Assembly (NCBI GenBank): GCA_900315805.1
Contig: ONAN01000005.1
Coordinates: 1-64,000 of the forward strand
DNA length: 64,000 nucleotides
Direction of reading: 5' to 3'
Source: an uncultured Selenomonadales bacterium
GTDB taxonomy: Bacteria; Bacillota; Negativicutes; Acidaminococcales; Acidaminococcaceae
The number at the start of each line of letters is the position of its first letter. The stretch's first letter is position 1. The notes beneath the pieces were generated by a model. The model was not told the DNA's origin, did no database searches, and saw only the letters and a list, made by a program, of their open reading frames with translations. Both the position numbers and the translations under genes were made by a program. This document shows positions 42,288-45,762 of this stretch, piece by piece.

Positions 42288-42355
42288 AGCTGCCCCGTCC
42301 TTCAGTGGTCCGGCGGGCAGACCGGCGGACGGAAATCGCGAGGAGGCAGCATATC

Positions 42356-43933
42356 ATGTACAAAGTATTGGTAACGGAACGCATTTCGGACAAGGGTGTG
42401 GCAAAGCTCCAGGCCCAGCAGGATTTCCAGGTCGACGTGAAGCTGAACCTGCCGCGGGAAGAACTGCTGCAGATCATTCCGGATTACGACGCCATCGTCG
42501 TCCGTTCTGTCACGAAAATCAATGAGGAATTTTATGAACATGCCACGAACCTGAAGGTCGTGGGCCGCGCCGGCAACGGCGTCGACAACATTGAAATGGA
42601 AGGCGCCACGCAGCGCGGCATCATCGTCGTGAACACGCCGGAATCCAACATCATTTCGGCCTGCGAGCACACCATCGGCCTGCTGCTGGCTTCGTGCCGC
42701 AACACGGTGCGCGCCCATAAGATGATTGAGAGCCGCAAGTGGGACCGCGACGGCCTGAAGGGCATGGAACTGTACGGCAAGACGCTGGGCATCATCGGCC
42801 TCGGCCGTATCGGCGGCCTGTTGTCCACGCGTATGCAGGCGTTCGGCATGAAGATCATCGCCTATGATCCGTACATTGCCGATGCGCGCTTCAAGAAATA
42901 CAACGCCCGCAAGTGCGAGACCCTGGACGAACTGCTGAAGGACGCCGATGTCATCAGCATCCATACGCCGAAGACCGAAGAGACCATGAACATGATCACC
43001 TACAAGGAATGGCTCAAGTGCAAGAAGGGCGTCCGCGTCGTGAACTGCGCCCGCGGCGGCCTGTACAATGAGCAGGACCTGGCCCGCGCCATCAAGGAAG
43101 GCATTGTGGCCAGCGCCGGTATCGACGTGCTCGTGGACGAACCGAAACCCATTTCCCCGCTGATCGACCTGCCGCAGTGTGTCCTGACGCCGCATCTGGG
43201 CGCCGACACGTACGAGGCACAGGACAACGTGGGCCTCGCCATTGCGGAAGAAGTCATTGCGGCCCTGCACGGCGAAATCGTGGCCAACGCCGTCAACCTG
43301 CCGGCCCTGCCGGCCAGCGAGCTGGACGCCGTGAAGGTGCAGATGACCCTGGCCGAGGACCTGGGCAAACTGTATTACCAGCTGCAGCATGAGGCCATCA
43401 ACAAGGTGGAAGTCATCTACAGCGGCGCCATGGCCGAAATGGAGACGAACATGATCACCCGCGCCGTCCTCAAGGGCGTTTTCGAACCGGTCCTGAAGGA
43501 ACGCGTCAATTACGTCAATGCCATGATCACGGCCAACGGCCGCGGCGTGGAAGTCGTGGAAAGCAAGGAATCCGGCACGGTCAACCTGCTCCGCGTCAAC
43601 ATCTACACGAAGAGCGGCAAGTTCACCGTGGCGGGCAATACGACGCCGGAAGGCGCCATCCGCATCAAGGATATCGACGGCTACCAGTTCGACTGCGAAC
43701 CGGCACCGTACATGCTCGGCATCAACAACGTCGATAAACCGGGCATGATCGGCCGCATCGGCACGGTGCTCGGCGCGGAAAACGTCAACATCGGCAACAT
43801 GCAGGTCAGCCGCAACGCCAAGAACGATGTGGCCATGATGCTCATGACCGTCGACAGCGCGGTCGATCCGACGACGCTGCACACAATCCAGGCTTTCGAA
43901 GGCATCACCAAGGCGGCCAATATCCGCATGTGA
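42356..43933 (+). CDS. serA: D-3-phosphoglycerate dehydrogenase
   Basis: 525 aa, the long type. The N-terminal catalytic/NAD part has GRAGNGVDNIEMEGAT, GIIGLGRIGGLLSTRMQAFG, the VNCARGG Arg, the DVLVDEP Glu and TPHLGADT His. An intervening ASB domain (about 320-450) precedes a C-terminal ACT domain (from about 455, MLGINNVDKPGMIGRIGTVLG), the usual serine-feedback module. It oxidises 3-phosphoglycerate, the first step of serine synthesis. It is a single gene behind the T-box; AGGAGG precedes the ATG. Confidence 0.95.
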   Translation: MYKVLVTERISDKGVAKLQAQQDFQVDVKLNLPREELLQIIPDYDAIVVRSVTKINEEFYEHATNLKVVGRAGNGVDNIEMEGATQRGIIVVNTPESNIISACEHTIGLLLASCRNTVRAHKMIESRKWDRDGLKGMELYGKTLGIIGLGRIGGLLSTRMQAFGMKIIAYDPYIADARFKKYNARKCETLDELLKDADVISIHTPKTEETMNMITYKEWLKCKKGVRVVNCARGGLYNEQDLARAIKEGIVASAGIDVLVDEPKPISPLIDLPQCVLTPHLGADTYEAQDNVGLAIAEEVIAALHGEIVANAVNLPALPASELDAVKVQMTLAEDLGKLYYQLQHEAINKVEVIYSGAMAEMETNMITRAVLKGVFEPVLKERVNYVNAMITANGRGVEVVESKESGTVNLLRVNIYTKSGKFTVAGNTTPEGAIRIKDIDGYQFDCEPAPYMLGINNVDKPGMIGRIGTVLGAENVNIGNMQVSRNAKNDVAMMLMTVDSAVDPTTLHTIQAFEGITKAANIRM

Positions 43934-43953
43934 CGGCAGCGCAAGGTATCCGG

Positions 43954-43971
43954 CCGGCCCCCCGGGGCCGG
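43954..43971 (+). other. GC-only hairpin downstream of serA
   Basis: CCGGCCCC and GGGGCCGG are separated by two C residues, 21 bases after the serA stop. There is no T-tract, so it is not a canonical intrinsic terminator. It could slow polymerase or protect the mRNA 3' end. Confidence 0.35.
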
Positions 43972-44026
43972 GTTGGGAAATACACAGTAAATTCACAAAC
44001 TTTTCCGTGCATTTCCCGGCGGAATC

Positions 44027-44035
44027 TGTTATACT
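44027..44035 (+). promoter_or_regulatory. Extended -10 promoter of the candidate small RNA
   Basis: TGTTATACT (TGn plus TATACT) with a poor -35. It places a transcription start near 44042, at the 5' arm of a long-range stem in the candidate RNA. Confidence 0.45.
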
Positions 44036-44041
44036 AAGCCT

Positions 44042-44237
44042 AGCAGTGTGAATCCCTACAAAAATCGTAGCCGATTCTGCCGCTGCGGTAAAACAGCCAA
44101 ATGCGGGCTGTGCCCGGTGCACGGTCCTCATCAATATAACTCTCTTTCCCTTATAATCCTATATCTTGTTTTCTTTTCACGTGTCTGTGTTTCACGATGC
44201 AGGTACATACCGGCAGGTTTCTGCCGGTTTTTTTTTG
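44042..44237 (+). ncRNA. Candidate structured small RNA (6S-like), about 195 nt
   Basis: A 440-base gap between serA and the permease holds no credible gene but does hold its own promoter and terminator. Within it, GCAGTGTGAA (44043-44052) can pair with TTCACGATGC (44191-44200), apart from a 2x2 internal loop, closing the whole molecule. An apical hairpin ACAGCC (44093-44098) / GGCTGT (44106-44111) lies between, with long unpaired pyrimidine-rich flanks (CTCTCTTTCCCTTATAATCC). Closing stem, large central bubble and apical hairpin, about 190 nt long, resemble 6S RNA. I could not verify by alignment; an unrelated RNA or untranslated leader is possible. Confidence 0.4.
44209..44236 (+). terminator. 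Intrinsic terminator of the candidate small RNA
   Basis: ACCGGCAG, loop GTTT, CTGCCGGT, then a run of nine T residues: a strong terminator inside an intergenic region, 137 bases before the next gene. Confidence 0.92.
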
Positions 44238-44310
44238 CACGTTCCAAGGGTCCGGAACGGAGAATTTTGCGGCGGGACGGGAAATACATCTGCCCAAGGA
44301 GGGCGCCATA

Positions 44311-44319
44311 TGATATAAT
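44311..44319 (+). promoter_or_regulatory. Extended -10 promoter of the permease gene
   Basis: TGATATAAT, followed 10 bases later by a second TATAAT (44324-44329). Either would give a short leader for the permease at 44374, independent of the upstream RNA. Confidence 0.55.
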
Positions 44320-44373
44320 TAGGTATAATTTTTTGTGCCGCCGTGGCACACCGCATACTGAGGGAGGTCCATC

Positions 44374-45762
44374 ATGCAAGAGGGTATCTTAGAGAGGGTA
44401 TTTCATTTGAAGGAAAACGGGACAACGGTCCGTACGGAACTGATGGCCGGTCTGACGACGTTCATGACCATGGCCTATATCCTGGCCGTCAACCCGTCGA
44501 TTCTGAGCGTCACCGGCATGGATAAGGGGGCCCTGCTCACCGTCACGGCGCTGGCTTCGTGCCTGGCGACCCTGATGATGGCGGCCTTTGCCAACTATCC
44601 GTTCGCCTTGTCCGCCGGCATGGGCCTGAACGCCTATTTCGCCTTCACCGTCGTCAAGCAGATGGGCTATTCCTGGGAAATGGCCCTGGCCGCGGTCTTC
44701 GTGGAAGGCATCATCTTCATCGTCATGTCCCTGACCAATATCCGGCAGGCCATCTTCAACACGATTCCGTTGAGCATGAAGCAGGCCGTGTCCGTCGGCA
44801 TCGGCTTGTTCATCGCCCTCATCGGCCTGTTCAACGCCCATGTCATCGTGGCGAACCCGGCGACGAAGATCGCCCTGTTCTCCTTTAAGCAGTCCCTGCT
44901 GGGCGGCACGTTCCACAGCGTCGGCATCACGGTCGTCCTGTCCCTGATCGGCATCCTGGCCACGGGCATCATGATGGCCAAGAACATCAAGGGCAATATC
45001 CTGTGGGGTATCCTGCTGACCTGGCTGCTGGGCGTCGTGTGCGAGCTGACGGGCCTCTATGTGCCCAACCCGAAACTGGGTATGTTCAGCGTGCTGCCGA
45101 ACTTCTCCGCCGGCCTGGCTTCGTTCCTGCCGGCTGATCCGTCGCCGATCTTCCTGAAACTGGATCTGTCCCGGGTGGCGTCCCTGGATTTCCTGGTCGT
45201 CGTCCTGGCCTTCCTCTTCGTCGACCTCTTTGATACGCTGGGCACGCTGATGGGCGTTGCCTCGAAAGCCGACATGCTGCGTCCGGACGGGACCCTGCCC
45301 CGCATCAAGGGCGCCCTCATGGCCGATGCCTGCGGCACCGTGCTCGGCTCCCTCATGGGCACCAGCACCGTCACGACCTTCGTCGAAAGCGCCTCGGGCG
45401 TCAGCGAAGGCGGCCGCACGGGCCTGACGAGCGTCACCGTCGCCGTCCTCTTCTTCCTGTCCCTGTTCCTGTCGCCGATCTTCATGGCCATTCCGGCTTT
45501 CGCCACGGCTCCGGCCCTGGTCATCGTCGGATTCCTCATGGTTTCGTCCATCACGAAGATCGACTTCACGAATCTGACGGAAGCGATTCCGGCGTATATC
45601 TGCATCATCGCCATGCCGTTCGCTTACAGCATTTCCGAAGGCATCTCCTTCGGCATCATTTCCTACGCCATCATCAACACCCTCACGGGCCATGCCAAAC
45701 GGGTGAGCCCGCTGATGTATGTTTTGGCGGTCATCTTCATCTGCAAGTACATCTTATTGTAA
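44374..45762 (+). CDS. NCS2/AzgA-family purine permease
   Basis: 462 aa, about 12-14 membrane helices. The N-terminal family pattern [28 protein letters not shown] is followed by [34 protein letters not shown] and [26 protein letters not shown], all diagnostic of the AzgA (adenine/guanine/hypoxanthine) branch of NCS2. It imports purine bases with protons. GAGGGAGG precedes the ATG. No purine riboswitch is seen in its leader. Confidence 0.93.

Follow-up and report, generated by a model that had tools for sequence, protein, structure and literature searches.

Between serA (42353–43930) and a permease gene (44374–45762; Pfam match Xan_ur_permease) in the genome of an uncultured Selenomonadales bacterium lies a gap that raises a simple question: does it contain a gene of its own and, if so, what kind of RNA does that gene specify? 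The stretch of DNA analysed here, referred to as the window, is 64,000 nucleotides long and belongs to the genome designated G000; two relatives, G004 and G009, also carry the RNA unit. The initial annotation had proposed an independently promoted structured RNA at this position, possibly 6S RNA. Conservation of the promoter, the RNA and the terminator in three species argues for the first part of this proposal; the 6S identity is not supported. We consider the unit to be, more likely than not, a stand-alone gene for a trans-acting, base-pairing regulatory RNA of uncultured Selenomonadales, restricted to one clade as far as searched.

A probable transcription unit in the serA–permease gap

The features of the unit are collected in Table 1. 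The initial annotation had described an extended −10 promoter, a strong terminator about 195 nt later, a second promoter for the permease and the lack of a credible open reading frame, and each of these observations is confirmed. The pattern TCTGTTATANTNAGC matches the window only once, at the promoter of the RNA (two mismatches allowed; 0.28 matches expected). The −35 element of this promoter is poor, and a promoter scan requiring both hexamers returned none in 43800–44500. All three species share the region immediately upstream, and the intergenic sequence flanking it is less conserved. Within this region, the TTCC/GGAA arms of the palindrome (44011–44025) are retained in the promoter spacer of all three and its centre varies; overlapping the −35/spacer, it is possibly a regulator site (operator). 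Near-matches to the palindrome occur in the window at chance level, with five at up to two mismatches, the site itself counted, against 4.9 expected.

Table 1. Features of the RNA unit and its surroundings, in window coordinates
Feature	Position	Strand	Remarks
Upstream promoter region	43992–44025	+	TTCACAAA box (43992–43999) and imperfect palindrome ATTTCCC-N3-GGAAT (44011–44025)
Extended −10 promoter TGTTATACT	44027–44035	+	read directly; identical in G004 and G009
Small RNA gene	44042–44236	+	putative start 7 nt past the −10, hence a length of about 195 nt
5′ hairpin P1	44043–44086	+	from predicted folds; variable, absent in G009
Hairpin P2	44101–44131	+	same position, altered sequence in G009
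CU-rich tract	44130–44178	+	49 bases, mostly unpaired, invariant; proposed interaction region
Hairpin P3	44181–44206	+	from predicted folds
Intrinsic terminator with U tract	44209–44236	+	stem 44209–44228, then T run; kept in all three species
Separate extended −10 of the permease, TGATATAAT	44311–44319	+	read directly; kept as TGnTATAAT in both relatives

The one reading frame that had to be weighed, 44048–44392, reads across the terminator, matches nothing in Pfam (E 0.001), is shifted by a one-base indel in G004 and is lost in G009. Because the frame is broken in the relatives, we regard it as non-coding; a small Cys-rich protein encoded there is rejected on account of the broken frame together with the lack of a Pfam match. 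The unit would therefore have its own promoter, its own intrinsic terminator and no coding function, as judged from sequence and conservation, which is what a gene for a trans-acting base-pairing small RNA would be expected to have.

Distribution and conservation among relatives

Searching 61 genomes at the DNA level recovered the unit from G000, G004 and G009, and all other matches were short, with E of at least 0.012. Within the genus this amounts to 3 of 14 genomes with the window's own included (2 of the 13 others), and the copies in the relatives (loci L003 and L004) occupy the same serA–permease gap. A serA tree with 16 rows groups the three genomes in one clade (support 100/100). An exact 22-mer scan of named genomes returned two records, the same two relatives, and a plasmid search for the unit gave no match. 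A covariance model built on the 3′ part, run against 59 genomes of the family with stricter filters that lose some weak matches, scored 182 bits in G000, 182 in G004 and 141 in G009; eight weaker matches in seven other genomes lay at 17.6–22.9 bits (E 0.05–1). Since the effective sequence number in this model is about 1, remote relatives may have been missed.

Closer to the locus, BLAST of the unit against 20 stretches, those of G010 and G007 among them, produced one 16-base match (L108, E 0.39). Two serA–permease gaps from other species were examined in full, those of G006 and G013, and contain no such unit; the stretches from G010 and G007 stop at contig ends and give incomplete gaps. In G013 (L096, G013:C6:15300–16350), a gene read as CBS-domain-like lies between serA and the permease gene in place of the RNA gene.

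Within the three species, conservation is concentrated in the promoter, the CU-rich tract, P3 and the terminator, with the flanks conserved much less. The promoter and the 3′ half are nearly unchanged, and the alignment of the flanks to G009 is poor. P1 is not the same in G000 and G004; in G009 the 5′ half of the RNA, P1 included, is missing, so that the RNA there would be only about 152 nt long. The 49-base tract is identical in all three except that G009 has one extra T in a run of Ts. Between G000 and G009, four-fold degenerate sites are 71% identical in serA (230 sites) and 61% in the permease gene (242 sites). With four-fold identity of only 61–71%, the probability of 49 of 49 identical bases by drift alone is well below one in a million, an estimate that is 0.713 to the power 49 for a stretch picked after inspection.

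Sequences resembling parts of the tract do occur elsewhere. A partial copy with three mismatches is present at G000:C22:67904 and in G004, on the opposite strand beside a T-box leader, and G056 has a three-mismatch match to part of the tract; we take all of these as chance. Scanning viral contigs for exact 17-mers turned up six stretches, three of which extend for four more tract bases and the others for none or one, and these too are taken as chance. The T-box leader itself (RF00230, 100.1 bits; L119 1226–1469, on G000:C22 at about 67904, outside the window but on its contig, further along) adjoins a gene that reads as a 2-isopropylmalate synthase type.

Predicted fold and conservation of base pairs

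The segment 44039–44236 folds with a predicted energy of −58.6 kcal/mol, compared with −43.0 ± 3.75 for shuffled versions (z −4.15; 0 of 200 shuffles as good). In the predicted minimum-energy structures of all three species, separate hairpins are joined by a long open linker. Comparing G000 with G004, P1 has a single two-sided change (A-U to G-C) and one broken pair. P2 has two pairs altered on both sides (G-C to A-U and G-U to C-G) and two pairs broken in G009, and all 11 counted pairs of P3 are kept in the three species, two of them through a change from U-G to U-A.

Aligned on this fold, the three species have 93.4% of cells paired, against 30–52% in slid versions; the terminator arm of G009 is out of register in this alignment, which lowers the pair count for that genome. 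Two pairs changed on both sides, a level reached by 60 of 500 shuffles, and the single two-sided change in the alignment of G000 with G004 was reached by 219 of 500, so that with only three sequences the covariation is without significance. The pair counts lean towards the predicted fold, although three sequences are no proof of it.

The CU-rich tract has a mean unpaired probability of 0.81–0.86 in the predicted ensembles, with single bases dropping to 0.02–0.09; in the minimum-energy fold of G009, the 5′ end of the RNA pairs with four bases of the tract. Mostly open in these models, the tract may be a conserved single-stranded pairing region.

Candidate targets and a possible role of Hfq

It is informative to consider what such a tract might pair with, given that it is complementary to purine-rich ribosome-binding sites. 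For a 16-base part of the tract there are 37 non-self complementary sites in the three genomes (up to three mismatches) and 32 sites for the backward pattern; complementary sites are thus hardly more frequent than those of the control. Seven of the 37, in six distinct genes, are followed after 1–9 nt by an ATG that begins a frame of 60 codons or more, as are 2 of the 30 control sites examined (two further control sites without a locus were left out); this excess is suggestive only. Five of the six candidate genes match a Pfam family and the sixth does not.

The predicted duplexes are strongest for a resolvase-type recombinase (−30.3 kcal/mol), a PhzF-like gene (−28.6, with 17 contiguous pairs including one G-U by reading) and a DctM transporter (−27.7), followed by queF (−26.4 in G004, with 13 contiguous pairs by reading, and −22.0 in G000), a DUF2922 gene of G009 (−23.6) and the frame without a Pfam match, in G004 (−22.8). 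For comparison, the start regions of the permease gene and serA give −17.3 and −10.1 kcal/mol. Neither of the two candidate sites that were followed, those of the PhzF-like gene and queF, is conserved in all three species: the PhzF-like gene has no homologue in G004 or G009 (E 1e-20), and the queF site, shared unchanged by G000 and G004, has not been retained in G009 or in three further genus members examined. Across the 50 genes called in the window, predicted pairing of the tract is better at start regions than in mid-gene sequence; however, dinucleotide-shuffled tracts equal or exceed its pairing with start regions in 115 of 200 cases, and in 125 of 200 they reach the same difference between start and mid-gene. 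Because shuffled tracts do equally well, the start-region preference is explained by the composition of the tract.

An hfq gene (PF17209) is present in all three genomes, and on this basis the RNA is perhaps Hfq-associated. The mode of action that we favour would begin with transcription from the RNA's own promoter, ended at its own terminator. The variable 5′ hairpins would form a cap, the invariant and mostly unpaired CU-rich tract would be the pairing region, and P3 together with the terminator and its U tail may make up a 3′ module of a kind that binds Hfq. Masking of purine-rich ribosome-binding sites on a few mRNAs would be the likely outcome.

Relation to known small RNAs

No Rfam family reaches its gathering score in the window or in the loci of the two relatives. 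Below that threshold, frnS/FnrS (RF01796) aligns weakly to 44152–44232, mostly P3 and the terminator, at 23.7 bits (gathering score 60; E 0.11), and Giardia U2 gives a weak alignment at the locus; both are taken as chance.

A closer likeness, in generally known features, is to the CU-rich or C-rich small RNAs RoxS/RsaE, LhrC and IsrR of Firmicutes. These are stand-alone genes with hairpins and an intrinsic terminator, and they have an exposed C/U-rich segment that can mask purine-rich ribosome-binding sites. Small RNAs limited to one clade are common in general. The likeness is one of features: unlike these RNAs, the window RNA has no Rfam match at gathering score and was found in one small clade only. 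It is a new, clade-restricted small RNA of a familiar kind. Papers on the Firmicutes RNAs include PMC5419742, PMC6435200, PMC4132741 and PMC9410917. Among the papers on Hfq and small RNAs in Megasphaera or Negativicutes found in the open library searched, none has such RNAs as its subject according to its title and the start of its abstract. A conserved candidate with clear boundaries offers a starting point for work on RNA-based regulation in these bacteria. One can go further and imagine a new family of small RNAs, with an unusually long invariant unpaired tract of 49 bases at the heart of its function, an exchangeable 5′ module and a palindrome-regulated promoter, acting as a main post-transcriptional regulator of the clade, but we hold this larger picture to be doubtful and offer it tentatively.

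Alternative explanations

A base-pairing small RNA is the most likely explanation, with the particular targets as candidates only, and a serious rival is a noncoding RNA that mainly sequesters a non-Hfq protein, such as an RNA-binding regulator or an RNase, through the CU-rich tract. The seed of a small RNA is usually shorter than 49 bases, and invariance over the whole tract, as well as pairing to start regions no better than that of shuffles, would fit protein binding. However, titrating RNAs usually carry a repeated motif and by eye the tract has none, and we judge sequestration to be unlikely as the main function.

It is also worth considering a cis-acting leader, either a riboswitch or an attenuator, that controls the permease gene. 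The unit lies directly upstream of that gene on the same strand and ends in a terminator, and this synteny is kept in three species. Nonetheless, a conserved extended −10 belonging to the permease itself follows the terminator, and conservation within the unit is highest in an unpaired tract instead of an aptamer-like fold. Inspection by eye gave a single antiterminator candidate (CTGCCG in P1 against the terminator arm), which is not kept in G004 or G009, no conserved alternative pairing could be seen, and the lack of any Rfam match at gathering score extends to riboswitches even at E ≤ 10 in 43800–44500. A leader is accordingly a poor prospect, and quite unlikely.

That the gap might hold a conserved DNA element, or a non-functional intergenic relic, has to be entertained in that the transcript is a predicted one and that short −10-like boxes are present within the tract. 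Conservation nonetheless tracks the layout of an RNA, with promoter, hairpins, open tract and terminator, and the pairs of P3 are maintained, which makes this explanation improbable.

A 6S RNA, or a second 6S-like RNA binding RNA polymerase by open-promoter mimicry, is extremely improbable. The RNA shares with 6S RNA (RF00013) its length of about 195 nt and an independent transcription unit with its own promoter, and two 6S RNAs occur in some bacteria. However, 6S is not among the two Rfam matches at E ≤ 10 in 43800–44500. The predicted folds of the three species contain separate hairpins and a long open tract where 6S RNA would have a long rod of closing stem, central bubble and apical stem, and the G009 copy lacks the 5′ half. 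The closing stem had been proposed to form between the 5′ end and the segment just before the terminator; this pairing is absent from all three minimum-energy folds, and its summed weight over the first 12 bases is 0.098 pairs in G000, 0.003 in G004 and 0.335 in G009. The pairing is thus possible, with little weight in the computed ensembles for G000 and G004 and modest weight in that for G009.

The initial annotation had also named in advance what would count against it, namely that the genome has a 6S gene at another place and that homologues lack conserved pairing. On the second point three sequences are too few to settle the matter; on the first, such a gene is found at G000:C30:13297–13479 (L001 1501–1683), where the match scores 90.8 bits against a cut-off of 46.4 and is the sole 6S match in the genome. 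The position of the 6S gene is thereby settled as far as sequence allows, and it sits between genes read from their translations as aspS and rarA.
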